A stretch of DNA of 32,987 nucleotides from assembly GCA_029862005.1 (NCBI GenBank), contig JAOTYD010000036.1, forward strand, positions 1-32,987. Direction: 5' to 3'. The stretch is from Gammaproteobacteria bacterium. Its GTDB lineage: Bacteria > Pseudomonadota > Gammaproteobacteria > GCA-001735895. Below the pieces are notes generated by a model. It ran no database searches. It worked only from the letters and a program-made list of their open reading frames with translations, and was not told the DNA's origin. Shown in pieces: positions 1 to 20,522 of the stretch (its first letter is position 1; the number at the start of each line of letters is the position of its first letter). The translations under genes were made by a program, and so were the position numbers.

Positions 1-1784
1 ATGGTGGCCGCATCGTTCGTCCCGGTGATGGTAATGGCCTGGGTCGCAGTCGTACCATCATCGGAGGTAAAGGTAATGGTATCGACCAGGGTCTCGCCAT
101 CGGCGAGGGCATCGACAACAGGATCATTGTTATCGAGGGTATAAGTCCAGTCACCACTGCCATCGACAGTCACGGTGCCGTAGTTTGCGGTACTGGTGTC
201 CAGGGTGCCTTCACCATTATCGACATCGCTGATCGCAATGGTGCCGCTGGCGGTCTGGTTGGCCCCGTCGTCTTCGGTGACCGCGGTATCGACTGGGGTT
301 ACCGAAATGTTCGCGGTATCATTGACAGCGCTAATCGTGCCGCTGACTGTTGCGGTATTGGTTAAGCTGCCATCACTGAGGGTGTAATCAAAGCTGACCG
401 GACCATTGTAATTAGCAGCAGGGGTAAAGGTGATGTTATCACTGGCATCGATATTCACGGTGCCGTTGGTCACGGCGATACTCTGCACGCCACCGACTAG
501 GGCGGTGCCATTGATCGCGGTAATACTGATCGGATCGCCTTCGGGATCGCTGTCGTTCGCCAGAAGCGTTGCATTCAAGCTGGCCGTGGTAGTGTCTTCT
601 GCACCATCCAGGGCGCCCACGTCAACGATCGCATTCGGGGCGGTATTTACCGTATAGGATTCTGTATCAGTGACTGGTGCCGCGACATTGCCGGCCGCAT
701 CGGTGGCAATAAAAGATGCATCGATGGTAGCGTCGGGATCATTTCGCAGGTCGCTGCCATTCACATCGATGCTGAAACTACCGTCGGCAAGCACGCCACC
801 ACTGGCACTAACCCCGTTGATAGTCAGCGTGACAATATCACCAGCCTGAAAGTCGCCAGCGACGCTACCAGTAATACTAACTGTGCCAGCGGCCTCTGCG
901 GCATCGATGATGTCATCAGGAGTGATGTTTGCATCCAGCGTGATACTGGCCGTGGCTGTAGTATCAACTGTATGAGTCGAAGTTGTGGTCGCACTATATG
1001 GATTACCCGCTCCATCGATACCGGATACTGTCGCGTCAAAGCTGGTGTCAACCATCAGGTCCGCAGCTGCAACCGGAATACTAAATGTGTTAACAGCACT
1101 AACGGTTCCGCTATAAGCCGTGCCGTTAACGTTGAGGTCGATAGAATCGCCCGTTGTGGCGAAGCCGCCCACGTTGCCCGTCACGTTAATCATACCTGCC
1201 GTTTCGGTGGCACTGATGATGTCATCGGCAGTAATATTATCAACCGCGATTGATACATTAGGGGCGCTAGTGTCACTAACGGCACTAACCGTTTGGGTGT
1301 CGGCTGTTGGAATAATAACCGCATCTTCAAGCGGCGATTGATTATCGGGTCCAGCAGAACCCAGATCGAAAGGAGTAAGGCGGGTTTCAACAATGCCTTC
1401 ATTACCGTCCCTGGAGTAAACTGATGCCTGGTGTAATGCATCCGAATCACCGGCGGCTCCGGCAGCGGTAGCTTCCAGTTCGGCAAGGTCGATACCCTCG
1501 ACAATCAGGCTCTGCAATTCAGCTAATTGATCAACGCGCGACTCGGGATAGTCACTGAGGCCTGCGAAAACCGACTCGTCCAGCAGCATTTCGGTATTTT
1601 CACCAACCTGCAACTTATTCCCGTTGTAGAACTCGAGCACAATCTGGGTATTGAGACCTGTTGTGAGGATATCGCCCTCGTTAATCTGGTCACCAATACT
1701 GAGAACTCTGATTACACCATCTACGCTGCGAACCTGTGCATCGCCGATTAATTCGGCGACATAACCGATACTTTTAGTTGCCAT
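1..1784 (-). CDS. LapA/BapA-type giant repeat adhesin, N-terminal part (runs off left edge)
   Basis: This open frame starts at the ATG at 1784 and continues past base 1, giving about 594 residues of a longer protein. Residues 1-105 look like the retention module of LapA-type type I secretion adhesins: GYVAELIGDAQV, then a DGVIRVLSIGD segment and a GDILTTG loop. Residues 106-109 are TAAG, the motif LapG proteases cut, at almost the same distance from the start as in Pseudomonas LapA. Two bacterial Ig-like repeats follow (about 172-272 and 273-377, each with a DNIT/ANIT-xDDII opening), then a cadherin-like domain (about 379-483) and a VCBS-type repeat (about 484-594). The protein is probably exported through the LapB/LapC/TolC genes upstream and held in the outer-membrane channel by the retention module. 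No strong Shine-Dalgarno is visible. The C-terminal secretion signal lies outside the window. Confidence 0.93.
   Translation of the reverse strand, partial: MATKSIGYVAELIGDAQVRSVDGVIRVLSIGDQINEGDILTTGLNTQIVLEFYNGNKLQVGENTEMLLDESVFAGLSDYPESRVDQLAELQSLIVEGIDLAELEATAAGAAGDSDALHQASVYSRDGNEGIVETRLTPFDLGSAGPDNQSPLEDAVIIPTADTQTVSAVSDTSAPNVSIAVDNITADDIISATETAGMINVTGNVGGFATTGDSIDLNVNGTAYSGTVSAVNTFSIPVAAADLMVDTSFDATVSGIDGAGNPYSATTTSTHTVDTTATASITLDANITPDDIIDAAEAAGTVSITGSVAGDFQAGDIVTLTINGVSASGGVLADGSFSIDVNGSDLRNDPDATIDASFIATDAAGNVAAPVTDTESYTVNTAPNAIVDVGALDGAEDTTTASLNATLLANDSDPEGDPISITAINGTALVGGVQSIAVTNGTVNIDASDNITFTPAANYNGPVSFDYTLSDGSLTNTATVSGTISAVNDTANISVTPVDTAVTEDDGANQTASGTIAISDVDNGEGTLDTSTANYGTVTVDGSGDWTYTLDNNDPVVDALADGETLVDTITFTSDDGTTATQAITITGTNDAAT
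1458..1469 (-). other. LapG cleavage site (TAAG) in the adhesin
   Basis: These codons encode Thr-Ala-Ala-Gly at residues 106-109, inside an alanine-rich helix-like segment just after the retention module. LapG-family proteases cut LapA-type adhesins between the two alanines of TAAG or PAAG. A Gly-Ala-Ala-Gly overlaps immediately downstream and could be a secondary site. Direct reading of the codons is certain. Cleavage is inferred from the family and from the lapG gene in the same cluster. Confidence 0.85.
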
Positions 1785-1927: not shown

Positions 1928-2527
1928 CTATGACTGCTTGAGGTAAAGTACCAGCCCGACTCGGTCCTTGAGTTCGAGTTTTTTAAAGATTTTGGTCAAG
2001 TGACTCTTCACGGTAACTTCAGAAATCTCAAATAAATCAGCGATTTGTCGGTTAGATTTGCCTTCGCCGACGGCAAATGCGATATCTCTTTCTCGCGCGG
2101 TTAATATTTCCAGCTGCTTTTGTTGACCGGAGGGATTTACAGCCTGTTGCGCGAGCTTGAAAGCTGCATCCAGCATCTGCGGCGGAAACCAGCTTTGATC
2201 GTTTTCCAGTAACCGCAGCATCTGGTGATAGTGCGGGGCGGCCATGTGACTATTGCAATAGGCTTTGGCGCCGAGACGCACACATTCGAGCATTTCATGG
2301 ATGTTGGGAAGATCAGAGCAGACGCCAACGCGAAGCGGTTTACCGGAAACATGTTTCAGTAACCACTCGTAGCATTCGAGTTCCATGCCCGATACATGTA
2401 CCAGATAGAGTCGCTCGGTATCTTCCGATGGTACTTGTAACTCCCTGCTATATTCGAAGGCGATGTCCAGGTGGCGTTGCAGAAAACGATCAAATGAACG
2501 CGATGTTGAATAAACGAGAAGCTTCAT
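1928..2527 (-). CDS. LuxR/CsgD-type transcriptional regulator with degenerate receiver-like domain
   Basis: This is a 199-residue protein. The C-terminal part (about 138-199) is a LuxR/FixJ helix-turn-helix: LTARERDIAF, then GKSNRQIAD and SEVTVKSHLTKIFKKL. The N-terminal 120 residues have the alternating strand-helix pattern of a receiver domain, but where the third strand should carry the phosphorylated aspartate the sequence is LVHVSG (about 42-47). Phosphorylation control is therefore unlikely in the classical form, as in CsgD- or VpsT-like biofilm regulators. The start ATG overlaps the lapC stop by one base (TAATG), so the two are translationally coupled. The gene sits directly before the adhesin, and inference from context makes it the likely local regulator of adhesin expression. 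The signal it senses is unknown. Confidence 0.85.
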   Translation of the reverse strand: MKLLVYSTSRSFDRFLQRHLDIAFEYSRELQVPSEDTERLYLVHVSGMELECYEWLLKHVSGKPLRVGVCSDLPNIHEMLECVRLGAKAYCNSHMAAPHYHQMLRLLENDQSWFPPQMLDAAFKLAQQAVNPSGQQKQLEILTARERDIAFAVGEGKSNRQIADLFEISEVTVKSHLTKIFKKLELKDRVGLVLYLKQS

Positions 2528-3894
2528 TACCGCTCTCGTAACGCCTTGTCTATTCCACGATGAACCGGTTCAGTCAGGTATGACAATATCGTTTTCTTGG
2601 CAGTTATAATATCAGCCTCAGCGGTCATGCCGATTTTAATGGGTAATTCGCCACTTTTTCCACCGAGAAACGATTTTGTCGGTTTCACTCGGACCAGGAA
2701 GAAACTCTGACCCTCTTCATTGGTAATGGTGTCGGCGCTGACAAAAGTTACGATACCTTGCAAACTGCCATGAATCGCGAAATCGTAGGCCGAAAATTTC
2801 AACCTGGCGAACTGTCCGACATTTACATAAGCGATATCTGCAGGCTTTATATTCAGTTCAACCAGAAGGTCGTCTTCCTGGGGCACGATGTCGAGAATAC
2901 TATTCCCCGGTGTTATTACGCCGCCGATGGTGTTGAAATACAGGCGTTGCACGATACCGTTAACCGGCGAGCGCAGGGTAGTGCGTTTGACTCGATCTTT
3001 CAACGCGGTTTGCGTCTCCTTGATGCGACTGATCTCGGCGGTTACTTCGTTTAGTTCCTTTTTGGCATTGTTCTGAAAGTTAAGCCTTTCTTTCTGCTTA
3101 CTGAAACGAGCCTCCTCGATCGTAGACTCGATGCGGGGTACAGATAATTTGACCGCCTCGATTTCGCCTTCAAATTCGGCCTCTCGCTGTTGCAACTGTA
3201 AAAACTCGACTTCGCTGATAATGCCGCGGTCCTTTAATGGCTTTTTGATAACAATCTCTTTTTTGACCAGGTTCAGGGACCGTTGCAGTTGACGCCGTTT
3301 CGACTGGGCTTCGAGTAAGGCGCTTTTTTGCTGGCTTATTTTTTCTTCAAGAATGCTTAGCGTTTCCTTGAGTTGTTGCTGGTTCGAATCGAACAGGCTT
3401 TTCTCTGACTTGATCAGTTGGGGTGCTTCCGCGCTAACTTCGCTATCGGGTATAAAATCCCGGTCGAAGGCTTCGGCAGTCAGACGACTGGCCTTGGCCA
3501 CCAGTTCGAGGTAGAGCAGTCGGTTCTCTTCGAACGAGCTTGAAAACGCGACGTCACTGATCTTGATCAATGCCTGTCCTTCCTCGACCGCCTGTCCTTC
3601 AGCAACCAGAATCTCCGATATGATGCCGCCTTCAAGGCTCTGAATGTTCTGCACCTGGCTCGCCGGTGAAACCTTGCCCGAACCGCGAATAACGACATCA
3701 ATTTTCGCCCAGTTCATCCAGGCGATCGCGGCGATGACGAACAGCGCAAAGATCATTACAACCGCGATCAGGTGGCGCGGTGACCGATGTACAACTGCAG
3801 CTGAAAGGCTGCGCATATACACCATGTCCTGCTTGCCATGGATCCCCATTTGGGTGATATCTTCAAAATTGGTATTGTCGTCATCGTTATGCAT
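2527..3894 (-). CDS. lapC: Type I secretion membrane fusion protein, HlyD/LapC family
   Basis: This 455-residue periplasmic adaptor joins the ABC transporter to the outer-membrane channel. It has a cytoplasmic tail of 40 residues, one membrane segment (about 41-60, LIAVVMIFALFVIAAIAW) and a lipoyl-like half-domain containing SLEGGIISEILVAEGQAVEEGQ (about 86-107). A long charged coiled coil follows (about 120-300), then the second lipoyl half with LRSPVNGIVQRL and a C-terminal beta-barrel region. Size and order fit the HlyD family. Its start overlaps the end of the transporter gene by 8 bases and its stop overlaps the regulator start, so it belongs to the same operon. Its partner is the adjacent LapB-like ATPase. 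Confidence 0.95.
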   Translation of the reverse strand: MHNDDDNTNFEDITQMGIHGKQDMVYMRSLSAAVVHRSPRHLIAVVMIFALFVIAAIAWMNWAKIDVVIRGSGKVSPASQVQNIQSLEGGIISEILVAEGQAVEEGQALIKISDVAFSSSFEENRLLYLELVAKASRLTAEAFDRDFIPDSEVSAEAPQLIKSEKSLFDSNQQQLKETLSILEEKISQQKSALLEAQSKRRQLQRSLNLVKKEIVIKKPLKDRGIISEVEFLQLQQREAEFEGEIEAVKLSVPRIESTIEEARFSKQKERLNFQNNAKKELNEVTAEISRIKETQTALKDRVKRTTLRSPVNGIVQRLYFNTIGGVITPGNSILDIVPQEDDLLVELNIKPADIAYVNVGQFARLKFSAYDFAIHGSLQGIVTFVSADTITNEEGQSFFLVRVKPTKSFLGGKSGELPIKIGMTAEADIITAKKTILSYLTEPVHRGIDKALRER

Positions 3895-6037
3895 TCTGAG
3901 TACCTTTCAGGGCATTCAATACCTCGTCCTTGGGACCATCCATGACAACGCGTCCCTCGTCCATGACGATTAACCGTTCTACCAGCTCAAGCATCGGTGC
4001 CTTGTGCGTCACCAGCAGCAGGGTCCTGTCGCGGGTGTATTCAAAGATCCGTTTCTTGACGATGGATTCCGTTGTGTTATCGAAACTGTTGGTTGGTTCA
4101 TCGAGAATCAGGAGCGGCTCGTTCAATAGCACGGCTCTCCCCAGGGCGATTGCCTGTCTTTGACCGCCGGACAGGAACCCACCTTCCTCGCCGACCTGGG
4201 TATCAAAACCCTGCGGTAACTGATTAACGAAGAGGTCTACGCCACTAATAGCTGCTGCCTGGATGAGCTTTTCATCGTTAATATGTAAATCCTTGTAGGC
4301 AATATTTTCTCGAATCGTACCGCGTAATAATTCGATGTCCTGCGACAGGTAACCGATATTTCTGCGCAGGTCGGCCGGGTCTATCTGATTGATGTCGATA
4401 TTGTCGATTGCAATCGAACCGCTGTCTGCCTGGTAGAGACCGATGATCAGTTTCATCAGGGTGGTTTTTCCGGATCCCACCTTACCGATGACACCGACAT
4501 GCTCACCTGCCTTGATTTTTATCGAAATGCCCGCGAGGGATTTCTTGGGAGATTCAGGGTAACTGAAATCCACCTCTTTGAAGTTGATAGCACCTTCGAA
4601 ACCAGGACGACGCACATAAGACTTGCCGTCGGGTCTCTCGACCGGTTTCTGCATTAAATTTTCGAGAGAGCGGAATGCTGTGCGAGTCTGTTCATAGCTG
4701 GTAATCAATGCGGCAATCTGGCCCATCGGCGCCACCGCTCGAGATGAAAGCATGACGACGGCGATTAATCCACCCAGGCTGAGTTCCAGGTCACTGATAC
4801 GGTAGATGCCAAACACGATTAAACCAATCGTGTTGAACTGGACCATCAGATTGGTCACCACGGTGATCGACGACGCCAGCATGCGTGCACGCATCGAACG
4901 GTTAGCAATGGTCCCGGATGATTCTTCCCATACCCACTGTGAATAATTGGCGACGCCGAGTGCCTTCACGGTTTTTATCGAACGCAAGGTCTCGATCAGG
5001 TGTGCATTCTTGTTTGCAGTCGCTTCGTAGGTTGCTTCCACACTGGCTTTTAGTGGCCTGATCAAAATAAAACTGTAGAGCATCAACAACGCGATAATGA
5101 TCAGGGGAACCGCGATCATCGGGCCACCGATGTAGTAGATGACCAACAGGAAAATAATTGCAAAGGGCAGGTCAACGAGGGTCGCGATCGTCGATGCTGT
5201 GAAAAAGTTGCGGATACTTTCAAATTCACGTAACTGGCTGGCAAAAGCACCGATGCTTGCCGGCCATTGATCCATTTTCAGGTTCAGCACATGGGAAAAT
5301 ATAATGGATGACATGATGATATCGCTTTTTTTACCGGCGATTTCAAGCAGATAGTTGCGGACGAAACGTAAAGCCGTGTCAAAAACATAAACCGTGGCAA
5401 TGCCGGCGGCCAACACCCAAAGGGTCGCGATAGCGTCGTTCGGCACCACCTTGTCGTACACGTTCATCGTGAACATCGGCGTCGCAAGTATGAACAAATT
5501 GATCAGTATCGACGACAGCAGTACGCTCGCGAAAATGTCCCTGGACTTGGCCAGTGTTCCCCAAAACCAGTGACCTGTGCCTTCGCTAGCTTCCGTGGAT
5601 TCGCCGGATTCCTTACGTAATTCCTTTTTGAGCAGGAAGGCATAGCCAAGATATTCGTTGCTCAATTGGCTCAGTTCGAGCCACTCTTCTCCTTCACCGA
5701 TCTCCGGGAAAATGACTTTGGCGCGATTGTTTTTACGGTCGATGCTTTCAAGTATGCAGGCATTGCCATTCTTTAATACCAGGATACAGGGCAGCAAAAG
5801 TCTCGACAGCTTGCTGAGATCGCGATGAATCAGGCGGCTGGCAAATCCAGCGCGTAATGCGACCCGTGAAAATAAACCCTTGGGACGGTCGATACTGAAA
5901 AGCTCCGGGCCATCTGCACCAGGTTCAACCGGTAAACCCGCAATCAAAGCCTCGACGCTGATTGGCCGGTTATGTATCTTGGCAAAGATAACCAGGCACT
6001 CGAGCAAAGGGTCATACTGATGATGAGGGTCGATCAT
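3887..6037 (-). CDS. lapB: Type I secretion ABC transporter, LapB/HlyB family
   Basis: This 716-residue inner-membrane exporter powers secretion of the adhesin. The N-terminal domain (1-135) resembles a C39 peptidase but has no catalytic DCG-type motif, so it is the non-cleaving C39-like domain used for RTX-type substrates. The membrane domain covers about 165-440, with several strongly hydrophobic helices. The ATPase domain follows (about 480-716): Walker A GKVGSGKT (518-525), ABC signature LSGGQ (623-627), Walker B LLILDE (642-647) and the H-loop histidine at 678. All catalytic residues are intact. The start ATG at 6037 has no strong Shine-Dalgarno. A gap of 144 bases separates it from lapD, the only sizeable break between lapG and the adhesin regulator. 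Confidence 0.96.
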   Translation of the reverse strand: MIDPHHQYDPLLECLVIFAKIHNRPISVEALIAGLPVEPGADGPELFSIDRPKGLFSRVALRAGFASRLIHRDLSKLSRLLLPCILVLKNGNACILESIDRKNNRAKVIFPEIGEGEEWLELSQLSNEYLGYAFLLKKELRKESGESTEASEGTGHWFWGTLAKSRDIFASVLLSSILINLFILATPMFTMNVYDKVVPNDAIATLWVLAAGIATVYVFDTALRFVRNYLLEIAGKKSDIIMSSIIFSHVLNLKMDQWPASIGAFASQLREFESIRNFFTASTIATLVDLPFAIIFLLVIYYIGGPMIAVPLIIIALLMLYSFILIRPLKASVEATYEATANKNAHLIETLRSIKTVKALGVANYSQWVWEESSGTIANRSMRARMLASSITVVTNLMVQFNTIGLIVFGIYRISDLELSLGGLIAVVMLSSRAVAPMGQIAALITSYEQTRTAFRSLENLMQKPVERPDGKSYVRRPGFEGAINFKEVDFSYPESPKKSLAGISIKIKAGEHVGVIGKVGSGKTTLMKLIIGLYQADSGSIAIDNIDINQIDPADLRRNIGYLSQDIELLRGTIRENIAYKDLHINDEKLIQAAAISGVDLFVNQLPQGFDTQVGEEGGFLSGGQRQAIALGRAVLLNEPLLILDEPTNSFDNTTESIVKKRIFEYTRDRTLLLVTHKAPMLELVERLIVMDEGRVVMDGPKDEVLNALKGTQNA

Positions 6038-6181: not shown

Positions 6182-8107
6182 CTAGATTGCTTCCGCTTCG
6201 GCGAGAAAGTTTCCTTGCATGACATCGATTCCAAGAGATTTTAGTTCATCAAAAACTTCCTGCGAATCGACCGCTACGGCAATGATGCTGATATCCAGCG
6301 TGTCCGTGATTGTTTTTAATGCCTGGTAACCGGCCCGCATGTCATTGCGACTCATCTCGTGTAGTGTTTTAGCATTGATTTTAACGTAGTCAAACTGGCC
6401 GGATTGCAGCAACTGCAAAGACTGGCCGAGGTCCAGATTGTCGATTCCAAACTGATGCTGATGTTTCCTGACACGATCAGAAACCTTCCCGCACATGATC
6501 GGATGCTGGTTGAGGACGTAATGGCTGGCTTCGATGCATAAACTGGTATTGGACTGTTCGAAATCCTGCAGCAATTGATCGAATTCGGTCTGGCCCTCGG
6601 CCAGCTCGAAGAACGCGGCGCTCAGATTAATGGCGATTGGAATTTTTCGGTCGATGTCCCGATTTGAGGTCACCAGGCGGAACACTTCCTTGTCGATATC
6701 CAGAGACATGCCTAGACGCGAAGCCATAGGCATAAATGCCGATGCCGGCACTATCTGGTCTTTTTTATTTCGAATTCTGACAAACAACTCGCGCTGGATC
6801 GGAAAGCGTTCATTGCCGATCGCCAGTTGCGCGACCAGGAAAAGCTGATTCGATTGCAAAACCGACTCGAGCCAGCTGCGCCATTGCATTTTTCCCTGGG
6901 GTAATTCGAGATTGGTCGAGAGTTGTCGTTCAATCGAAAAGGGCCCCCGGGTGTCTGCCTGTGACAGGCAGTAGTCGATGCTGGCGAGAATACCCCCGAT
7001 CTCGCCACCTACTTCAAGATCGCAAATACCAGCCAAAAGTTTTACCTCGGACATATGAGGTTCCTTTTGTGATAGCGCCTGGAAATCATCGAATAATTTA
7101 CGAATAATTTCGGAGACCTCGGATTCGTCGGCAGCGCTTAAAAAAGCAAACTCATCCTCGTTAAAGCGTGATATGCGCTCAACGCCATGATCCGACTGCG
7201 CCTGGCGCAGCAGGTCTGCCAGAATCCGGATTAAATTGTCCGACACCTCGTAGCCTTGTTGATCACGCAATTGCTCGAAATCGACGATCTTGATAATCGC
7301 CATGCAACCATGCAGCCCTGATTCTTCCGACGTCGATTGCTGCAGCTGGTCAAGCAAGTAACGACGATTGCCCAGGTTTGTCAGCTTATCCCGGTAAAGA
7401 AGTCGTTGGTAATCGCCCAGAGTCTTTTCCTGGTTATCAAAGATATCCTGGACCTTTGCGACCATCAGGTTCATTGCTTCGACCACCCGTTTAAGCTCGA
7501 CTGTGGTTGGAAACTTTTCCTGTTGAACAAACCGGTTGCTATGTATCGCATCTGCCTGTTCCCTGACCCTTTGTAATGGCTGCAGTAGGTATCTAAGAAC
7601 CACCCAGAGCACCAGCATCGAAACCACGAACAACAGTACAAACCAGCGCAGTGCAGAAACCAGTGCCTGGTACATGGTGCTGTAGGCAAACCCTGGATGA
7701 ATCTCGAGTTTAAGTTCGCCAAGCTGGTTCCATCCCTTCATGACCCGGGTTGTTCCCCGTGCCGGCTCTAGCGGCACCAGGTGCAGAAACCAGCCAGGCA
7801 CTCCGGCAATATCCAGGTCCTGGCTTTTCTGATGGACGGTCTGACCATCAACCGCAACCAGCTCGATTCGCGTATAGTAGCCACTGTCGAAAACCGCGTT
7901 AAACAGGACTTCAAGCGTGGTCTCGTCGTCTCCTTCGGGCAGATTACTGATTGCGATCCCCAGGGTTGTGGCCATGTCCTGTGCCGTCGTCTGTAACTGC
8001 CCCTGCTGAAAACTACTGGTGCGAGAGAAATCGTTAATCACGATGATCAATAACAGGATTAAATAAATCGCCGATACCAGCATGGCTATCTGTTTGAATA
8101 ATGTCAT
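6182..8107 (-). CDS. lapD: LapD-type c-di-GMP receptor (periplasmic domain, HAMP, degenerate GGDEF and EAL)
   Basis: This 641-residue inner-membrane protein signals c-di-GMP levels to the periplasm. It starts with MTLFKQ and a first membrane helix (about 4-26), then a periplasmic LapD/MoxY-type domain including the family-typical FDSGYYTRIEL stretch (about 73-83). A second helix (about 155-175), a HAMP region, a GGDEF-like domain (about 235-385) and an EAL-like domain (about 405-641) follow. The GGDEF site reads NEDEF (316-320) and the EAL site reads ELF (440-442), and the usual DDFG is DNLD, so catalysis is unlikely and c-di-GMP binding by the EAL domain is expected. The ATG at 8107 overlaps the lapG stop as ATGA and has AAGGAAA upstream. 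A longer in-frame start at 8146 lacks this support. By analogy, the liganded form binds and holds LapG. Confidence 0.94.
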   Translation of the reverse strand: MTLFKQIAMLVSAIYLILLLIIVINDFSRTSSFQQGQLQTTAQDMATTLGIAISNLPEGDDETTLEVLFNAVFDSGYYTRIELVAVDGQTVHQKSQDLDIAGVPGWFLHLVPLEPARGTTRVMKGWNQLGELKLEIHPGFAYSTMYQALVSALRWFVLLFVVSMLVLWVVLRYLLQPLQRVREQADAIHSNRFVQQEKFPTTVELKRVVEAMNLMVAKVQDIFDNQEKTLGDYQRLLYRDKLTNLGNRRYLLDQLQQSTSEESGLHGCMAIIKIVDFEQLRDQQGYEVSDNLIRILADLLRQAQSDHGVERISRFNEDEFAFLSAADESEVSEIIRKLFDDFQALSQKEPHMSEVKLLAGICDLEVGGEIGGILASIDYCLSQADTRGPFSIERQLSTNLELPQGKMQWRSWLESVLQSNQLFLVAQLAIGNERFPIQRELFVRIRNKKDQIVPASAFMPMASRLGMSLDIDKEVFRLVTSNRDIDRKIPIAINLSAAFFELAEGQTEFDQLLQDFEQSNTSLCIEASHYVLNQHPIMCGKVSDRVRKHQHQFGIDNLDLGQSLQLLQSGQFDYVKINAKTLHEMSRNDMRAGYQALKTITDTLDISIIAVAVDSQEVFDELKSLGIDVMQGNFLAEAEAI

Positions 8108-8757
8108 GGTTTTTCCTTTTGAATATCGGCCAGTAATTTTGTCCACTTACTGTTCTTGATTTTATGGGTGGGCAGTGATTTGCCCAGTCCGGCCGACGCA
8201 TTGGACAAGAAAAGCGATTTGGCGTTGAAACTGTAAACGGGCAGTAAATCCGATCTTTTGTCAGCGCTGACAATAATTGGGTTGTAATTATCCAGGACCT
8301 GGGGGATGCTGGCCGGGGTAGGGAAGTAACTCAGCACCATGTGCGCCACATTCTGCTTCAGGGCCTTCACATAGGTCAGATAGAGACGTTCGTCGGGCAC
8401 GCCGAGTTTACGCAGGGCGAAGTACTTGGCAATGACAAAATCCTCGCAGTCGCCCTTGTGTGTCCCCAGGAATTCATTCGGCGTGGCCCAGTAATCCTGT
8501 TCACCCCAGTGGGCCCGATCTTCCGCGTATTCGAATTGATTAAAAAAGCGATTCACCTCGGTTAATTGCTTTTGAATACTTTGGCCCTGAAGTTCACCCA
8601 ACAGCTTATTGATTGCGAGACCCCGTTGATAAGCCCTATCAGAATAAGTGGTCTTTAAATGGTTCAGCATATCGTTGCTAACCAATGGACCGGCCAGATG
8701 CCTGGCAGGATTCATTAACAGAAGTGCTGCAACGATAAAGACACATCTATTCTTCAC
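8104..8757 (-). CDS. lapG: LapG-type periplasmic cysteine protease (transglutaminase-like)
   Basis: This protein of about 217 residues should cut the adhesin at TAAG and release it from the cell surface. A signal peptide is visible (KNRCVFIVAALLLMNPARHLAG). The catalytic triad of the bacterial transglutaminase-like cysteine protease family is present: Cys104 in GDCEDF, His139 in VAHMVL and Asp156 in LDNYNP. I chose the GTG at 8757 because GAGAGGG ends six bases before it; a GTG six codons upstream (8775) is also open but lies before that ribosome-binding site. The gene overlaps lapD by four bases (ATGA), which matches the functional pairing of the two proteins in Pseudomonas. There is a 164-base gap to the channel gene upstream. 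Confidence 0.95.
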   Translation of the reverse strand: MKNRCVFIVAALLLMNPARHLAGPLVSNDMLNHLKTTYSDRAYQRGLAINKLLGELQGQSIQKQLTEVNRFFNQFEYAEDRAHWGEQDYWATPNEFLGTHKGDCEDFVIAKYFALRKLGVPDERLYLTYVKALKQNVAHMVLSYFPTPASIPQVLDNYNPIIVSADKRSDLLPVYSFNAKSLFLSNASAGLGKSLPTHKIKNSKWTKLLADIQKEKP

Positions 8758-8763
8758 TACCTG

Positions 8764-8770
8764 CCCTCTC
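8764..8770 (-). promoter_or_regulatory. Ribosome-binding site deciding the lapG start
   Basis: On the minus strand GAGAGGG ends six bases before the GTG at 8757. This spacing fits that start and not the upstream GTG at 8775, which would place the site inside the coding region. Confidence 0.6.
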
Positions 8771-8878
8771 AGCACCGGGTGCCTGCATTACCGTAAAAAC
8801 CATATCCTTTTAACGCCGGGTAAGATTTTTTGACATGCTGGATTGGGTTATACAGGAGAGGCTTCCAAACTTACGTTA

Positions 8879-8921: not shown

Positions 8922-11108
8922 TTACTCTGCTTGATTCCTGGTTTTGAAAACGAATTCTCCGCGACGATTGATCGCTTTTCCAGCCTCGGTCGAATTATCG
9001 GCGATGGGCTCATTTTCTCCCACTCCAATCGCGATGATATCCGCGCTATCGATGTCGTTACTAATCAGTAAATTTTTCATCGCCTCGGCTCGTTTTTCAG
9101 ACAGGACCATATTATATCGGTCCGAGCCAACATTATCCGTATGCGTGTAAATCTCGATAATAATGTTGTCCATACGTTTAACCTGATCGATGATAGCCTT
9201 CACCTTGGCCTTGGACAGGTCAGTCAGTTCAGATTCATCATATATAAAGTTGACCAGATGAACCTTTCTAAGATCTATGACTTCAGCTACGAACACCCTT
9301 ACCCGCACTGTCGCGGTAGCGTTAGCCGTTGCGCCTTTATTATCCGTGACGGTGTATTTGAAAGTGTCGAACCCGATAAAACCCTCTGCGGGTCTGTACA
9401 CCAGGTTATTGCTGTCATTGAATGCCAGGCGGCCTACTTCAGGTTGGCTCACATCGATGATTTCCAGAGGATCGGAATCCGAGTCATAATCATTCGCAAG
9501 CAACTGTGCGGTCGTGATAACCAGTACGCTATTGGTTTCGATTTCAAACTCATCATCGTTCAGAATTGGAGCCGAGTTGGATGCTGGCAAAACAGGCTCC
9601 GGTTGTTTTACTTTCGAATCAATCCTGGTATCAAGCTGTTCGTTACATCCAAAAGGATTCACCTGGACATCGAGCAGCGTATTATCACAGTGGTCCATGG
9701 GATCAACTTCAGCATCCCGATCCTCGTCGTCGGGGAGCGGGAGGGCATCAACCTGGTTAGTGGTCAGTCGGGCAACCTGCAGATTGCCGTCTTTTAATTC
9801 GAATTCGATTGCTGCGGCTTCAAACAACCTGCCGATACCCTCGTAAACCCGATAGCGGGCAACCAGCGAATCATACTTAGCCTCGGTATATTGATTTCTT
9901 GCAGTATTCAGTTCGTTCTCTGCATCGAGCAGGTCGATAAGGTCGCGCTGGCCGATAAAAAACTCCTCTTTATAAGACTCGACGGTTTGTCCGGCCTTAA
10001 GGACGTGGGCATTGAGAAATTTAAGTTGCTGGACCAACAGGTCATCAGCAGTCCAGGATAACCGCAGGGTATTGATAACCTGCCGCCGCACCCGGGCGGC
10101 GAACTCCTTTTGCTCGTAAACGGCGCTGACTTTCTTTTGCTGCTCGGCATCATTTCTGCCACCGCGATAAAAATTGTACGAGAGATTGAGCACAATACTG
10201 GTTTCCTCGGTATTTCCGTCGAGGCCGTCAAGGTCTTCGCCATACTCGGTGGCAAGGCGAAGGTCGAGATTGGGATAGCGCGTTTTCAGTGACCGACGAT
10301 GATCCGACTGGGCCGCCTCGATATTGCTTTTCGCAACCCGCATCGCCGGATGGTCAACCAGCGCCTGGTCAATCAGTAAATCCAGTTGCTCTCGCGGCAT
10401 GGAAGGCAGACCGGGCTCGGACAATTCAAAGGGATCGATGTAGCGCCCCAGGATTTGATGCAGCTGCGTGGCCGCGTCTTCGAGATTGTTTTGTTGTGCG
10501 ATCTGGCTTGCCTGGGCGCGGGCGAGACGCCCCTCGGTTTGCTGCAGTTGCGAAAGCCTGCCAACACCGGAGAGATTACGCTCTTTTATCCGTGACAGAA
10601 TTTCTTCATGGGCCGCAACGTTTTCAATTGAAAGCTGGTAAAGCCGGCGTTGCTTGATGACCTCGAGATAAGCCTGTATTGCACGCAGTGCAATATTGTC
10701 GGCGGTGTCATAAACCTCGTATAGCGCGGCGTCGATGCGGGCCCTGGTTTGCTCGATCTGGTAGGTCGTGTCATAGCCGTTAAACAGATTCTGGGTGAGC
10801 GAGAGTTCGAGCCTGGTGCTGTCGTAGTCGACAGACTGGTTGCCGGTGGAGGGGGAATCGGTGTCATAAAATCCGGCGGAAGCGTTCAGATCAACACTGG
10901 GTCGCCAGCCACTTTCGGCGATATTACGGTCGCTGATAACCTGGCGGTAGACGTAGATCTTTTCTTTTACTTCCGGATGGGCACTGATCGCGTCAACAAC
11001 CATAGCCTGCATATCGAGAGCTTTTGCAGGTACTGCCAGGCTCAGCAAAAGGATGAGACCTGTCAGCGCTGTCTTCGAACCTGGATCTCGGACTGTAAAT
11101 GTGTTCAT
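8922..11108 (-). CDS. TolC-family type I secretion channel fused to cadherin-like and OmpA peptidoglycan-binding domains
   Basis: This is a 728-residue protein with a signal peptide (TALTGLILLLSLAVPAKA). Residues 31-435 are a TolC/LapE-type outer membrane efflux protein with its two repeated halves; the second contains LVDHPAMRVAKSNIEAA and later DLIDLLDAENELNTARNQY. An acidic linker (about 455-500) ends in DHCDN and NPFGC, resembling the calcium-binding linker of OmpA-like proteins. Residues 512-604 form a cadherin-like domain (LLANDYDSDSDPLEI, then GFDTFKYTVTDNKG). Residues 612-728 are an OmpA C-terminal domain with THTDNVGSDRYN, LSEKRA and NRRGEF; Asp658 and Arg673 match the diaminopimelate-binding pair. 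Plain TolC/LapE proteins are about 430-480 residues. The ATG at 11108 is chosen because it puts the signal peptide at the N-terminus; a TTG at 11162 is also in frame. It is the first gene of the secretion cluster. Confidence 0.93.
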   Translation of the reverse strand: MNTFTVRDPGSKTALTGLILLLSLAVPAKALDMQAMVVDAISAHPEVKEKIYVYRQVISDRNIAESGWRPSVDLNASAGFYDTDSPSTGNQSVDYDSTRLELSLTQNLFNGYDTTYQIEQTRARIDAALYEVYDTADNIALRAIQAYLEVIKQRRLYQLSIENVAAHEEILSRIKERNLSGVGRLSQLQQTEGRLARAQASQIAQQNNLEDAATQLHQILGRYIDPFELSEPGLPSMPREQLDLLIDQALVDHPAMRVAKSNIEAAQSDHRRSLKTRYPNLDLRLATEYGEDLDGLDGNTEETSIVLNLSYNFYRGGRNDAEQQKKVSAVYEQKEFAARVRRQVINTLRLSWTADDLLVQQLKFLNAHVLKAGQTVESYKEEFFIGQRDLIDLLDAENELNTARNQYTEAKYDSLVARYRVYEGIGRLFEAAAIEFELKDGNLQVARLTTNQVDALPLPDDEDRDAEVDPMDHCDNTLLDVQVNPFGCNEQLDTRIDSKVKQPEPVLPASNSAPILNDDEFEIETNSVLVITTAQLLANDYDSDSDPLEIIDVSQPEVGRLAFNDSNNLVYRPAEGFIGFDTFKYTVTDNKGATANATATVRVRVFVAEVIDLRKVHLVNFIYDESELTDLSKAKVKAIIDQVKRMDNIIIEIYTHTDNVGSDRYNMVLSEKRAEAMKNLLISNDIDSADIIAIGVGENEPIADNSTEAGKAINRRGEFVFKTRNQAE

Positions 11109-11400: not shown

Positions 11401-11670
11401 TTATGCGTAGAGGACATAACCCAATGCAATGGAGGCAGCTATTCCAAGGGCGATGATGATCCAGTCCGATGAAGTGTATGATTTTTGAATCTTCGGGGAA
11501 TCCGAACCCTGTAAAGCGGTGAAGTTCTTTAAATCCGATTCATCGATCTTGCCCCGGTTTTCAAGTCGCTTCAGCAACTGAGCTCGAATCTCTACGTACT
11601 GTTCCCTGGATATCAAGTCGTTTGCGTAAGTTTTGGCGAGCAAACGCAAAGGGGAGGTTTGCTGATTCAT
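11401..11670 (-). CDS. Small membrane-anchored protein of the kinase operon
   Basis: This is an 89-residue protein of unknown function. The first 55 residues are soluble and helical, with charged heptad-like stretches (AKTYANDLISREQYVEIRAQLLKRL) resembling short SHOCT-like oligomerisation segments. A linker follows, then one membrane segment at the very C-terminus (about 68-88, IIIALGIAASIALGYVLYA). That arrangement is a tail anchor with the soluble part in the cytoplasm. The ATG at 11670 overlaps the kinase stop as TGATG, so it is translated with the kinase; a TTG one codon earlier is less likely. Position suggests a substrate or adaptor of the kinase-phosphatase pair, which is inference only. 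Confidence 0.75.
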   Translation of the reverse strand: MNQQTSPLRLLAKTYANDLISREQYVEIRAQLLKRLENRGKIDESDLKNFTALQGSDSPKIQKSYTSSDWIIIALGIAASIALGYVLYA

Positions 11671-13673
11671 CAATTTTGAAACTGTGCGTTTATTTGCTTG
11701 TTCAGGCTCTGCAAACGAGTATCTTCCGGGAATAGTTTCAGACCGGTGATAATGTAGTTTGACGCTTCATTGTACTTGCGCTTTGCAATCAGTTTTTCAG
11801 ATTCGGAAAGATAAAGATCGGATAGCGCCTTGTCCTTGAGCAGATAGTGTTTTGGATCAACGCGTTTAATAAGTGGAATAACGGTGGTTAAATCCTCTCC
11901 GTTAGGCGTTTTAACCAGCTTTTTGGCATTGAAATAGCGTTTGTACAGTGAGATCAGGCTGTTCATCAGGCGATCACGCTGTTCCTTGACCTGGTCTTCG
12001 ATCGTAGACAGGGCAACAGAATCGGGATAGTGCTGCTTCGCCTGCGCCAGCAGATTTTGAGCTTGCGGGTAATCGTATAGACCTTCATTGGGTCGAAACA
12101 CCGAGCGGATGCGATCCCGGTAAAATGTGATTATTTCCCGTCGCAGTCCAACCGAGATGATCTTCTGCTGTTCCGGGTTAAGTTGATCCAGCGACCAGAT
12201 CGTCTCGATCATCAGTGCCTTGTCACCATCCTTGATTAACTTGATCTTGTCGTATAGCTGCTGCTCGGCCTGGAACTCGAGAAAGGGCTTGTAACCTATT
12301 CCGGCCCCGATAACTCCCACAAACAGGGCTACCAATAAAATAGTCTTGCTATGCGATTTCCGCAGGCGCATGCCCTCGGCGAATTTCTCTACATTACTGA
12401 TTCTATCTTCACGAGCCGTCGTTAATGCTTTCATCAACGTTTTTTGCTGACGACGGTTTAATCCCTTGATTGGCTTGGGTTTTATTCCCAGCTCTTTAAT
12501 TTTGGGCGACGCGACCTTGTTATAGGGATGCTTGCCCCCAGCGAGCAGCTGGTAGGCGACACAGGCAAGACCGTAAATATCGTCTCTCGGATCGGGATTC
12601 ATACCGGCAAACATTTCCGGGGTTGCATAGGCTGGCGTGACTGCGCTGAGCTTGGCCGGATCAAACATCGTATTTTCTCGTTCCTCGTCCGTTTGCGTGC
12701 TTGCCCGGGCGATGCCGAAATCGAGGAGTTTGACGTGGCCGTCACTTAACAGGAAGCAATTACCCGGCTTGAAATCAGAGTGAATCAGCTTTTTCTCATG
12801 CGCATAGGCCAGGCCGCTGCAAAGCTCTTCGATAATGTGCAGCGCATGGTCAAGTTTGAGCGGTTTTTTATTTATTTCCTTGATCAGCTGGTTCAGGGGT
12901 TTTCCCTGCAGGTATTCCATGGTCATGAAAACGGTATTGCCGTCGCGGTCAAAATCATAGACCGTTGCGATATTCGGGTGTGCCAGGCGTTGCGCTTTAC
13001 TGGCCTCGCGCTGCAATGCAATGAACGATCCGGAATATTTTTTGAACGCATCGGTCAGTACCTTGATCGCGACGTAAGGGTCTTTATCCTGGGCCTCGAC
13101 TTTGAGTAAATCCTTGGCCTTGAAAACCACGCCCATACCGCCCTGGCCAAGCTTTTCCAGCAGCACAAACCGGTCTTTCAGGGTTACGCCCGGCCCGAGA
13201 TTTTCGTACTGTGCCGTTTTTGCTGGGTTCTCAACGATCTTTGGACTCATCGGAGATTCATCTTCGCCCATGCTGATCGAAGGTTCCGAAATTTCGATTT
13301 CCTTGCTATTACCACCGGCGCTAACCCTGACGATAACGGTCTTGTCGCCAGCTTCTCCATCATCGCCCCCGGCGGACAATTCCGAAATATCGGTCAGATG
13401 CATCGTTTTGTCTTCCGCAAAGTAGGAAATATCGGTTTCCTGGCTGTTTTTCAGCGTCGAATTGATATTTATCTTGGAGATTATGTGGGAGATCTGGGTG
13501 AATCCGTTGGAATCGATTTTATCACTGGTATAAAGGGACTGCAGATAGCTCTGGGCTTCTGTATGGCCGTGTGGCACGGCGTCGAATATGCTCGCCAGAC
13601 CCTGTTCCAGGTCTTTCATATCCAAAGTACCTGCAATGTAGTCATTTATCAGCGATTCGCAGACTTCAGACAT
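11670..13673 (-). CDS. Membrane-anchored Hanks-type serine/threonine protein kinase
   Basis: This is a 667-residue protein. Residues 1-165 are an acidic, variable N-terminal part without a recognised domain. The kinase domain covers about 169-435: glycine loop GQGGMG (176-181), Lys204 in VAIKVL, Glu223, catalytic loop HSDFKPGN (298-305) and DFG (318-320). The loop has serine where most kinases have the arginine of HRD, making this a non-RD kinase; YATPE replaces the usual APE. One membrane helix (about 443-462) is followed by a 205-residue C-terminal region of helical repeats, probably periplasmic. The ATG overlaps the phosphatase stop as TGATG. Key catalytic residues are intact, so it should be active. 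Its substrates cannot be read from the sequence; the FHA-cyclase at 27585 is a candidate target or reader. Confidence 0.94.
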   Translation of the reverse strand: MSEVCESLINDYIAGTLDMKDLEQGLASIFDAVPHGHTEAQSYLQSLYTSDKIDSNGFTQISHIISKININSTLKNSQETDISYFAEDKTMHLTDISELSAGGDDGEAGDKTVIVRVSAGGNSKEIEISEPSISMGEDESPMSPKIVENPAKTAQYENLGPGVTLKDRFVLLEKLGQGGMGVVFKAKDLLKVEAQDKDPYVAIKVLTDAFKKYSGSFIALQREASKAQRLAHPNIATVYDFDRDGNTVFMTMEYLQGKPLNQLIKEINKKPLKLDHALHIIEELCSGLAYAHEKKLIHSDFKPGNCFLLSDGHVKLLDFGIARASTQTDEERENTMFDPAKLSAVTPAYATPEMFAGMNPDPRDDIYGLACVAYQLLAGGKHPYNKVASPKIKELGIKPKPIKGLNRRQQKTLMKALTTAREDRISNVEKFAEGMRLRKSHSKTILLVALFVGVIGAGIGYKPFLEFQAEQQLYDKIKLIKDGDKALMIETIWSLDQLNPEQQKIISVGLRREIITFYRDRIRSVFRPNEGLYDYPQAQNLLAQAKQHYPDSVALSTIEDQVKEQRDRLMNSLISLYKRYFNAKKLVKTPNGEDLTTVIPLIKRVDPKHYLLKDKALSDLYLSESEKLIAKRKYNEASNYIITGLKLFPEDTRLQSLNKQINAQFQN

Positions 13674-14449
13674 CAGTTAACCTTTTGTTGCGTTTTCAAA
13701 GTAATAATCGAGGTATTATCGGTCCCACCGGCATCCAGCGAGGCGGCCAGTAATGACTGCGAGAGTTCGGTCATATTCTCCGGATTAGACTCGATTATGG
13801 GTGTTATTTTGGTTTCTTCCAGATCTTTATAGAGCCCGTCGGAACAAATGATGTAAATATCGTCCTGCTCGACTTCGAAGTACTCGAAATCCAGGCATAG
13901 ATTATCGTCGATTCCCACTGCTTTCAGCACGACGTTCGCTGCCGGGTGCTCCTCGGCTTCTCGCGCCTCGATTTTTCCCATTCTGACCAGTTCCTCGACA
14001 TAACTGTGGTCTTCAGTCAAGCGTTCCAGCTTCCCGTCCCTGTAGCGATAAAGGCGACTGTCCCCTGCCCAGAAGGTGAACAAAAGGTTATGCCAGATAT
14101 AGACGCATATGATGGTACTGCCGATCGTTGCGCTACGCCCAAGTTTAAAGGACTTTTTCCTGATAATTGAATTGGAGTTTAGTATATTTTCCTCGAGCAA
14201 TAAAATACTGTCATCCAGTGAAGCATGCTGTTTGAACAAGCTCAGATTGTTGGTAATCGTCTGGCTTGCGAAATCACCTGCATGATGGCCCCCCATACCG
14301 TCGGCAACGATCCAGACGTTTTCGTCTGCATGTACCAGTATCGAGTCTTCATTTTTGTCTCGGACGTGCCCGGTATCGGTTACGCCGTTGCTAGAAATTT
14401 GGAAACTGATTGGGGATAGCTGATCGTTATGTGCTATGTAGCGTGACAA
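13673..14449 (-). CDS. PP2C-family serine/threonine phosphatase (Stp/PrpC type)
   Basis: This 258-residue protein should dephosphorylate proteins modified by the adjacent kinase. Metal-binding and catalytic motifs of bacterial PP2C enzymes are present in order: RDKNED (30-35), VADGMGGHHAGD (48-59), GDSRLYRYRDG, then CSDGLYKDL and GGTDNTS near the end. There is no membrane segment, so it is cytoplasmic. The start is TTG at 14449, supported by AAGGAG five bases upstream; no alternative ATG nearby would keep the first motif. It is the first gene of the phosphatase-kinase-small protein operon. It is divergent from the putative beta-barrel gene, across a 176-base gap that must hold both promoters. 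Confidence 0.95.
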   Translation of the reverse strand: MSRYIAHNDQLSPISFQISSNGVTDTGHVRDKNEDSILVHADENVWIVADGMGGHHAGDFASQTITNNLSLFKQHASLDDSILLLEENILNSNSIIRKKSFKLGRSATIGSTIICVYIWHNLLFTFWAGDSRLYRYRDGKLERLTEDHSYVEELVRMGKIEAREAEEHPAANVVLKAVGIDDNLCLDFEYFEVEQDDIYIICSDGLYKDLEETKITPIIESNPENMTELSQSLLAASLDAGGTDNTSIITLKTQQKVN

Positions 14450-15671: not shown

Positions 15672-16949
15672 TCAGACCGCCAGGTTTTCCAGCTCCCACA
15701 TGGGTTGAGTAACGAAGCGCAACTCGGCGTGAGCATTTTTCAACGCGGTGTAAGTCTGTTCGAAGTCAGGTGCCTGCGCAAAGATAAAACCCAGGTAGCT
15801 TGAACCCTCGGGCAAGGGGATCAGTTCATAACCCGGATTAATATGGATTTCGATATCCCGGATATAGTCGATCTGCTGGGCTTGCGTTAATCCTTCCACG
15901 CGTTTCAGAATTCCCGAGTCGTTTATCGGGATCATTAACACCCCGGCGGATTCAACCGCCTTATTGGCTCGCGGTGCAATACCGCACATGCCCATGATGA
16001 TCAGTTCCTCGAGTTTTTGTTGCAATGAGAACTCAACCAGTTGACCGCATTGGCCGCCGATGGTACGCGCAGCCAGTTCCAGCAGGACGGCGCCGGCGCC
16101 CGACAGGCGTGCCTCGGCATGCACCGGCCCATGCGAAAGCCCGTAGGCGGCACAACAGCGCGTAACCTCGTCGATTAAGACCGTTTCCTGCTGATCGTCG
16201 AGTCGACTTGGCGTTACGTAATAAGTCTCTTCAAAATAAGGGCCAATGAGAGGCTCGGGTTTATCAAAGATGGCAAGCAATTTGAATTTGCCATCAATCA
16301 CGAAACCTTCGACGGCGTACTCGGGGCCGTTTATATAGGATTCAACCAGTAAGTTTTCACGCGCGAATCCCTGCTGACCCGCAGCTTCCAGTATGGCATC
16401 GATACGTCGCACTGCAACCCGGAATTCTGAATCATCGTTGGCGCGTATGACACCACGACTCGCAGCGAGTGCCAGTGGCTTGATGACGACGGGATATTCG
16501 ACTGACAGGGAGACGCGGTCAATTTCGACGATGTTTACCACCTGGTACTCGGGGGTGTTACATCCGGCTCCTGATAAGGCTTCACGCGCCAGGTCTTTTC
16601 GTTTGGTTAGCAGTGCCGCACGAGCGCTGTTCTGCGGCAGGTCGAGATATTCGGCGACATTGCTGCAGATCTCGACACAGCTATCATCGGTGGCCAGTAC
16701 GCAGGCGACGTCAATTGTTTTCAATGCCGCCATAATATCCTTAGATGCCTGCTTGGGGTCATCAAAATCGACCGTAATTCCCCGCGCGATCTCGGGCACC
16801 AGCGAATGTTCACTGTTGGATACCACCATGATGGGCATGCCAAGATTTTGCGCGGCCCGGGTATAAGCAGCGACTCGATAACTGGCCGCAGGCGCGACTA
16901 AAAGAACAAAGCCTGGTTCGGGGCCAGGCTTTGAATGGATTTGTTTCAT
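15672..16949 (-). CDS. ATP-grasp family carboxylate-amine/thiol ligase of unknown substrate
   Basis: This 425-residue protein has an ATP-grasp core. The N-terminal domain has a nucleotide-fold opening (FVLLVAPAASYRVAAYTRAAQ). The ATP-binding region has YPVVIKPLALAASRGVI (about 155-170) and NLLVESYINGPEYAVEG, and the metal-binding end has VHAEARLSG and LLELAARTIGG. A C-terminal domain of about 110 residues contains GVLMIPINDSGILKRVEGL. Such enzymes activate a carboxylate as acyl phosphate and join it to an amine or thiol. Its start is 12 bases after the stop of the A-type Fe-S carrier gene, so the two probably form one unit. I cannot name the substrate; purine-type carboxylases and peptide-forming ligases share this fold. 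Confidence 0.85.
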   Translation of the reverse strand: MKQIHSKPGPEPGFVLLVAPAASYRVAAYTRAAQNLGMPIMVVSNSEHSLVPEIARGITVDFDDPKQASKDIMAALKTIDVACVLATDDSCVEICSNVAEYLDLPQNSARAALLTKRKDLAREALSGAGCNTPEYQVVNIVEIDRVSLSVEYPVVIKPLALAASRGVIRANDDSEFRVAVRRIDAILEAAGQQGFARENLLVESYINGPEYAVEGFVIDGKFKLLAIFDKPEPLIGPYFEETYYVTPSRLDDQQETVLIDEVTRCCAAYGLSHGPVHAEARLSGAGAVLLELAARTIGGQCGQLVEFSLQQKLEELIIMGMCGIAPRANKAVESAGVLMIPINDSGILKRVEGLTQAQQIDYIRDIEIHINPGYELIPLPEGSSYLGFIFAQAPDFEQTYTALKNAHAELRFVTQPMWELENLAV

Positions 16950-16961
16950 GTTTATCAGTGC

Positions 16962-17402
16962 TTAGCCGTAGCCGCCACCGCCAGCCGCGCCACAACCACC
17001 GCAAACTCCGGAACCGCCGGTTTCCGCAAATACGTTGTTGAAAACGAATCGCTCGCGGCCAACTTCCTGGACGTAATCAATCTGGGCGCCCTTGAGATAA
17101 TTCAGCGCGACGACGTCTACGAGTACCTTGAATCCGTCGAACTGCAAGGTGGTATCAAAATCACTTTGCTCGTCGGTAAAGGTCATGCCGTATGACATGC
17201 CACCACAGCCACCACCGCTGATATAAATTCGAATCGCCGAGACGTCCTCGTCGGTCTGGGAGATGATTTCGTGCAACTTATCCTGTGCGGCCTGGGTGAC
17301 CTCGAGGTCACTGACCGTCAGGCTGGGCTGAAAAACACCAGAGCCACCACTAGCAGCCGGCTTGGCTTTCTGCGGTGGCCTATAGATCCCTACATTTTCC
17401 AT
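16962..17402 (-). CDS. A-type iron-sulfur carrier (HesB/IscA family) with atypical cysteine tail
   Basis: This 146-residue protein carries the HesB/IscA fold: LEVTQAAQDKLHEII, then IRIYISGGGCGGMSYGM and VLVDVVALNYLKGAQIDYV. A-type carriers bind iron or an Fe-S cluster through one cysteine in the GGGCGG loop and a C-terminal Cys-X-Cys. Here the first cysteine is Cys66, but the tail is GVCGGCGAAGGGGYG, giving Cys134-X-X-Cys137. A 30-residue low-complexity N-terminal extension is also unusual. I prefer the ATG at 17402, which has AGG nine bases upstream; an ATG two codons earlier (17408) is too close to that site. It is followed by the ATP-grasp ligase and divergent from glyA. Confidence 0.9.
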   Translation of the reverse strand: MENVGIYRPPQKAKPAASGGSGVFQPSLTVSDLEVTQAAQDKLHEIISQTDEDVSAIRIYISGGGCGGMSYGMTFTDEQSDFDTTLQFDGFKVLVDVVALNYLKGAQIDYVQEVGRERFVFNNVFAETGGSGVCGGCGAAGGGGYG

Positions 17403-17571
17403 GAACATTTACCTGCTTGCTTGATCGTCGGAATTATACACATGAAAACTGAAGTTCGACACGTTTTTACGCAAACGTGATTTAGCGTCGATGCTCGACG
17501 ATATATAGGTCTCAAGGGCCGAAATACAAGGTCTGATGCCGCTATAACCTGCCTTTCTGTCGTGATTTTTA

Positions 17572-17600: not shown

Positions 17601-17629
17601 CGCCTTCTTTTTCTCTCGAGGAATACCCG

Positions 17630-18886: not shown

Positions 18887-18897
18887 TCCGCTAAGCG

Positions 18898-19401: not shown

Positions 19402-19403
19402 CG

Positions 19404-20519: not shown

Positions 20520-20522
20520 ATT

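Follow-up and report, generated by a model that had tools for sequence, protein, structure and literature searches.

The window analysed here, a stretch of 32,987 nucleotides that makes up an entire contig (JAOTYD010000036.1) of the 3.99 Mb draft genome of an uncultured gammaproteobacterium (GCA_029862005.1), contains a gene that encodes, in one open frame, a TolC/LapE-type outer-membrane channel followed by an acidic linker, an immunoglobulin (Ig)/cadherin-like domain, and an OmpA peptidoglycan-binding-type domain. The gene lies in a Lap-type adhesion locus. On the evidence given below, the fusion probably tethers the channel that retains the adhesin to peptidoglycan, so that a pull on the adhesin would pass via plug and channel to the cell wall. 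The novelty lies less in the single fusion than in the fact that LapE-like channels repeatedly bear wall-binding domains, and that these have two different folds.

The sequence-only reading of this DNA had described one continuous frame joining the channel, the cadherin-like domain, and the OmpA domain, and the search against Pfam and NCBIfam bears out this description: each of the three parts of the 728-residue protein exceeds the curated cut-off of one model or more. Residues 511–603 match Pfam Big_9 and Cadherin_5, residues 30–434 match NCBIfam TIGR01844 (type_I_sec_TolC) at 254 bits (cut-off, 225), the channel part is also matched by Pfam OEP at 143 bits in two stretches, and residues 621–715 match Pfam OmpA at 66.9 bits (cut-off, 27.2). 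The OmpA domain matches OprF (5u1h; E = 6.2e-20), and Asp658 and Arg673, both of which had been picked out earlier, pair with identical OprF residues, which we take to be the diaminopimelate/peptidoglycan-binding residues of the OmpA family. The acidic, cysteine-containing linker had also been recognized correctly: the only two cysteines of the protein, Cys474 and Cys488, both lie in this Asp-rich stretch, and Asp461, Asp463, Asp465, Asp469, Asp472, Cys474, Gly487, and Cys488 are unchanged in all 12 aligned fusions. By eye, the linker looks like the thrombospondin type-3-like Asp/Cys-pair linkers of OmpA-family proteins; Pfam TSP_3 is absent among the Pfam matches reported for the fusion protein.

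In the predicted single-chain structure (mean predicted local distance difference test score (pLDDT), 80.9), residues 31–434 superimpose on TolC (1ek9) with a Z score of 30.9 (root mean square deviation (rmsd), 4.0; 391 residues aligned), and the TolC-like channel stops near residue 434. The Ig-like block is ordered, with pLDDT values mostly of 84–93, and the OmpA part is structurally similar to 5wtp (Z = 11.5; rmsd, 3.1; 110 residues aligned), as well as TagL and Dot structures (Z = 10.5–10.9) and Pal (Z = 10–11). Low-confidence stretches within residues 446–509 and 609–628 separate the channel, Ig-like, and OmpA parts. The OmpA domain of the monomer model is held on flexible linkers, an arrangement that neither supports nor refutes its reach to the wall.

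TolC is a trimer with a periplasmic C-terminal end, and because the C-terminal tail of TolC lies in the periplasm, the fused tail is placed there in the proposed mechanism. The fusion protein would act as the outer-membrane exit and retention channel (the LapE role) of a c-di-GMP-controlled LapA-type adhesin, with its C-terminal tail extended by the flexible Cys-pair linker, the Ig-like spacer, and the OmpA domain. Each channel, presumably a trimer, would have up to three such C-terminal arms with which to grip the cell wall. The retention module of the adhesin would plug the channel from the inside, and a pull on the adhesin would be transmitted through the plug and the channel to the wall, so that the outer membrane would not take it by itself. 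At low c-di-GMP, LapG would cut the adhesin at a TAAG-like site and thereby release it. We infer that the fused tail would bear mechanical load; the placing of the channel near LapD and LapG, proposed by the sequence-only reading, is likewise conjectural.

The Lap setting that had been assigned to the channel also stood. The genes for lapG, lapD, lapB, lapC, a LuxR-type regulator, and an adhesin with a retention module all follow the fusion gene on its strand (Table 1), and the locus is a Lap-type locus. The lapG product matches the NCBIfam LapG equivalog model at 188 bits (E = 1.1e-55), under the cut-off of 320 for that model. The N-terminus of the adhesin matches an antifreeze-protein structure (5ix9; E = 1.3e-6), and its TAAG motif is presumably the LapG cleavage site. 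The closest named loci among the best 80 of 573 relatives belong to uncultured Gammaproteobacteria (L141, L142, and L143).

A near-full-length fusion in a single open reading frame (ORF) was found in 14 of the 31 genomes of the same genus (the window's own included), a partial one in two, and no such match in 15; the fusion locus is patchy within the genus. Among five genomes of the same family, the fusion is full length in two and in pieces in three, and in the 12-row fusion alignment the 11 other rows are 57–87% identical to the window protein. A sequencing error joining two genes had been named earlier as a possible origin of the frame. No point in favor of such an artefact, whether of sequencing or of assembly, was found, and the occurrence of the same ORF in many separate genomes, at these identities, and in other families refutes it; its probability is negligible.

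A class-wide draw of 370 genomes yielded 53 LapE-like channels, of which 10 carry a C-terminal OmpA domain, one (L074) an N-terminal OmpA domain, and three a C-terminal SPOR domain, 14 channels with a wall-binding fusion in all. The sequence-only reading was therefore too strong in stating that ordinary LapE channels end after the channel, a premise that is further weakened by the neighboring-gene form described below. The channel–Ig–OmpA form occurs in four families of the draw (f1, f123, f130, and f41); in L072 the fusion protein bears OmpA twice. For 35 of the 53 channels, the fetched region showed no fusion and no ompA gene on the same strand, and the last four have an ompA gene just upstream (two) or elsewhere in the cluster (two). 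L085 and L093 mirror the Vibrio order: 13–16 bases upstream of the channel they have a small gene for an OmpA-domain protein with a lipobox-like motif. The co-occurrence with lapD and lapG, which the sequence-only reading had singled out for a survey, appears in this draw: lapG or lapD lies in the fetched region of 10/10 channels with C-terminal OmpA versus 15/43 of the others (Fisher p = 1.7e-4, an overstated value that ignores kinship, as the ten channels fall in three clades).

These clades were defined on a tree of 45 channels rebuilt with a mixture model, the rows being chosen from a quick 138-row tree that gave a long-branch warning; the identical channels L202, L142, and L188 and the short channel L143 had been dropped beforehand. 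C-terminal OmpA takes three changes on this tree, and still three across the 5–95% range of 200 bootstrap trees. The channels with C-terminal OmpA form three separate clades, and a single clade for all of them was rejected (approximately unbiased test, p-AU = 2e-13). Because the OmpA domains of these clades also lie apart on their own, weaker tree (quick, 102 columns), separate gains are the simpler reading, and we infer gains over losses. With loci of the phylum added, OmpA and SPOR each take four changes, of which three are in each case required by the starred branches; this enlarged tree has seven SPOR rows, and that of L237 has a match (L224) just below the cut-off (20.7 vs. 21). The added loci came from a draw of 397 genomes, 56 with a match; the 12 channels selected from it, most of them because their frames are long, and the nine of these that were Pfam-scanned give no rate. 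L222 and L223, from genomes of the same phylum but outside the class, are LapE-like channels of more than 1000 residues with two SPOR stretches each.

The SPOR domain sits at the same, C-terminal, end of the channel as OmpA. Within one genus, L234 ends in OmpA with Asp and Arg present, L233 in SPOR, and L106 in neither, and these three channels are 75–92% identical and have LapB/LapC neighbors in common. By eye, the last residues of the L106 tail are common to the SPOR tail of L233; L106 may have lost a SPOR domain. Among the fused C-terminal OmpA rows, Asp is present in 22/23 (21 distinct sequences) and Arg in 23/23. The peptidoglycan-tether role put forward by the sequence-only reading is thus supported by the intact Asp/Arg pair and by the fusion of OmpA or SPOR in several separate clades, and the finding that two unrelated kinds of wall-binding domain occur on this sort of channel in related bacteria suggests that wall anchoring is useful.

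Several observations weigh against this tether reading, and the first group of them concerns the form in which the OmpA-like protein is encoded by the neighboring gene. An OmpA-like gene, mostly of about 200 codons, directly follows the channel gene at a spacing of −44 to +17 bases in 39 of 76 named channels, a sample that was chosen by similarity (best 80 of 573 relatives) and gives no rate. The hosts are mostly relatives of Vibrio, Aliivibrio, Photobacterium, Shewanella, and Psychromonas, and loose motif scans found a lipobox in 21/39 and an Asp/Cys-pair linker in 27/39 of the proteins. In those of the SO4321 type (L144–L218), the position of the peptidoglycan-binding Asp is occupied by Ser in 38/38, and the Arg is kept. 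One further next gene, in L150 of another lineage, keeps the Asp; the two L150 domains (one of them 6.7 kb upstream) are the only Asp bearers in the next-gene set of 40 domains and are not among the 38. The SO4321-type proteins may therefore not bind peptidoglycan in the usual way, possibly through a change of ligand, and because of the contrast between Ser in these proteins and Asp in the fused rows, the fused and neighboring-gene forms may do different things. In addition, on the quick OmpA tree (long branches), the window clade appears to fall outside the next-gene clade, with a branch support of 99 in the Shimodaira–Hasegawa-like approximate likelihood ratio test (SH-aLRT).

The SO4321 gene itself is an OmpA-like gene of Shewanella located between the secretion genes and bpfG, and biofilm was affected when it was deleted; the authors of that study regard its role as unknown, with adhesin localization or BpfD/BpfG translocation as their guesses (PMC4523816). 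Together with TpgA (below), it serves as a precedent for the tether. A Rosetta-stone origin of the window gene, as aggA fused to SO4321, was considered and is not supported, given the position of the window clade outside the SO4321 clade on the quick tree and a key residue, Asp658, that is not Ser. This origin does fit L113, whose fused OmpA domain lies inside the SO4321 clade and also has Ser. Shewanella AggA with SO4321 is like the window in the gene order channel, OmpA, lapG, lapD and in the Asp/Cys-pair linker ahead of OmpA, and unlike it in the separate gene, the OmpA clade on the quick tree, and the Ser.

The lost Asp also bears on the possibility that the OmpA domain has a regulatory instead of an anchoring role, with LapD, LapG, or the adhesin plug as its partner. 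The fusion gene adjoins lapG and lapD, and the Vibrio and Shewanella neighbor proteins point to some members that may have another ligand. However, the window clade keeps both Asp and Arg, and the replacement of OmpA by SPOR within one genus fits peptidoglycan as a common ligand better than a common protein partner. Such a regulatory role is very improbable.

The remaining points against the tether come from the surveys. Fusion proteins were the source of the survey profile, which may therefore favor the finding of fusions. A retention module above the cut-off was found in 7/10 genomes with C-terminal OmpA, 20/40 other genomes, and 0/3 SPOR genomes, and is only somewhat commoner with C-terminal OmpA. 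None of the three class-draw SPOR fusions has lapG or lapD nearby. Because these SPOR fusions lack lapG, lapD, and the retention module, the wall-binding tail also goes with channels that are not shown to retain an adhesin. SPOR tails are not limited to LapE-like channels either: the genome to which L094 belongs also encodes a TolC-like paralogue (L128:753-2414, minus strand) with a C-terminal SPOR domain. The fetched DNA contains no OmpA domain or neighbor for the Aeromonas channels L154, L162, L165, and L167, which lie beside lapG and lapD, nor for the Pseudomonas channels L184, L187, and L206. Finally, the three changes on the channel tree could also consist of a single gain followed by two losses. 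The idea that lapDG systems in general have a tether was rejected, given the Aeromonas lapDG loci without a tether and the class-draw SPOR fusions without lapDG.

A general envelope tether, in which the channel, like Pal or OmpA, would simply help to connect the outer membrane with the wall and the adhesin would be incidental, is improbable, although the window's own genome has 10 OmpA-domain matches and the fused domain is a standard OmpA domain. The wall-binding tails recur on the LapE-like clade, whereas only one tail was found among the checked frames of the other OEP ORFs of the class genomes bearing fusions. A hand count at E up to 1e-8 gave 57 such ORFs and covered 13 of these 14 genomes (all but G032); of the 13 long frames checked, which are all those of at least 494 residues and one of 485 (five of 487–490 residues and the shorter ones being left out), one has SPOR and 12 have neither domain.

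The closest parallel that has been tested is TpgA, the OmpA-domain periplasmic partner of the outer-membrane anchor of the giant Acinetobacter adhesin AtaA. TpgA is encoded after ataA and binds both peptidoglycan and AtaA, and its loss lowers adhesiveness and display (review, PMC5861075). Unlike the window protein, TpgA is a separate protein of a type V secretion system (trimeric autotransporter) with no channel fusion. The match of the fusion protein to the TpgA model NF047726 is weak (35.9 bits; cut-off, 350) and below TpgA membership, and by this analogy the window protein is best read as working like TpgA without being a member of that family.

The same parallel also favors a serious rival, namely an assembly factor, in which the tail would place or stabilize the channel during biogenesis, or help the adhesin thread out, with no load-bearing role. 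Besides adhesion, the proper translocation and display of AtaA depend on TpgA (PMC5861075). The rival remains serious because, in a simulation of AtaA–TpgA, the anchor was reinforced even without peptidoglycan coupling (PMC13082670). YbjP, a lipoprotein partner of TolC, has been proposed to anchor or escort TolC (PMC13016604), which shows that accessory anchors on the TolC fold are being found. SPOR domains bind denuded peptidoglycan and are described for the septum (PMC7901474), so that the tails of the SPOR channels without lapDG nearby might set location. On the other side, the 35/53 class-draw channels with neither fusion nor same-strand ompA gene argue against a general need for the tail in assembly, and the fused C-terminal OmpA channels of that draw all lie beside lapG or lapD. 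Overall, an assembly or stabilizing role appears unlikely, though far from negligible, and the peptidoglycan tether is preferred.

Among other known systems, LapE of the Pseudomonas Lap system is alike in its TIGR01844 channel, in the type I secretion of a retention-module adhesin, and in its lapG/lapD/lapB/lapC neighbors, and unlike the window in that the sampled L184, L187, and L206 are without an OmpA tail. LapE is described as the anchor of the adhesin (PMC6890996 and PMC13090378), LapD and LapG decide adhesin release (PMC6890996), and LapEBC is mentioned in PMC8277102; the term OmpA occurs 0 times in the examined text of these three papers, and PMC3499465, in the part examined, treats OmpA-domain proteins and TolC only apart. 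In the open-licence literature, covered largely as titles and the openings of abstracts and with most subscription papers outside its scope, no report of such a channel–OmpA fusion was met. OmpA domains have an anchoring role in TagL of the type VI secretion system (T6SS), in Dot/Icm, and in the MotY ring. These are secretion or motor complexes like the present one, with structural matches at the Z scores given above for TagL and Dot, but they are different machines without a TolC-channel fusion.

Table 1. Positions of the fusion gene, its parts, and the Lap genes in the window
Feature	Position	Strand	Basis or remark
LapE/TolC–OmpA fusion gene	8922..11108	-	One open frame, 728 residues plus stop; kept in relatives
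Signal peptide, residues 1-30	11019..11108	-	Hydrophobic N-terminus ahead of channel domain, judged by eye
TolC/LapE-type channel, residues 31-435	9804..11018	-	TIGR01844; TolC 1ek9 fold match
Acidic Asp-rich linker with Cys474 and Cys488, residues 461-488	9645..9728	-	Invariant key residues; low-confidence model stretch
Ig/cadherin-like domain, residues 511-604	9297..9578	-	Big_9, 69.3 bits; Cadherin_5, 63.5 bits
OmpA peptidoglycan-binding-type domain, residues 612-728	8925..9275	-	Pfam OmpA; OprF 5u1h; structure matches
Asp658, peptidoglycan-binding position	9135..9137	-	Aligned with OprF 5u1h
Arg673, peptidoglycan-binding position	9090..9092	-	Aligned with OprF 5u1h
lapG, periplasmic BTLCP protease	8104..8775	-	Peptidase_C93, 52.8 bits (cut-off, 27)
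lapD, c-di-GMP receptor	6182..8146	-	LapD_MoxY_N, 120 bits; GGDEF; EAL; HAMP-like below cut-off
lapB, type I secretion ABC transporter, LssB type	3887..6037	-	TIGR03375, 888 bits (cut-off, 693)
lapC, HlyD-type adaptor	2527..3894	-	TIGR01843, 389 bits (cut-off, 209)
LuxR-type regulator	1928..2527	-	Between lapC and adhesin gene
LapA-type adhesin, N-terminal 594 residues, runs off contig	3..1784	-	retention_LapA NF033682, 60.9 bits (cut-off, 50); Ig-like repeats
TAAG, LapG-cleavage-like motif, adhesin residues 106-109	1458..1469	-	Sequence motif

Directly upstream of the lap locus, the window carries genes for a Ser/Thr protein kinase and a PP2C phosphatase (11670-14449, minus strand). The seven genes scanned in 15672-32987 encode an ATP-grasp ligase, SHMT, RibD, a RibBA-like protein, a Glu/Gln-type tRNA synthetase, aconitase, and a HerA-like protein. 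Elsewhere in the surveys, L090:6573-9176 (minus strand) has tandem LapE-like channels, one with a C-terminal beta-barrel porin domain (BBP2_2) of about 370 residues, and in L221:1651-3531 (minus strand; same place in L238) a LapE-like channel beside lapG and lapD ends in an NTF2-like Cds6_C domain; the count of tethers includes neither of these extensions. The LapB proteins of L081 and L082 (949 and 938 residues, respectively) have about 240 extra N-terminal residues of unassigned kind.

For the wider family, we suggest with some reserve, and at less than even confidence, that peptidoglycan anchorage may be an unrecognized and repeatedly evolved part of Lap-type adhesion machines, in which OmpA (C- or N-terminal) or SPOR would have been gained many times, and even exchanged within a genus, because the adhesin otherwise pulls on the outer membrane alone. 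To our knowledge, it is not settled how a giant type I secreted adhesin resists force when a plug in an outer-membrane channel is all that retains it. A channel with its own wall-binding domain, with two unrelated domains found in the same place, would give a direct handle on this question. The finding would also bear on the unexplained role of SO4321 in biofilm, with the caution that the SO4321-type proteins have lost the Asp.

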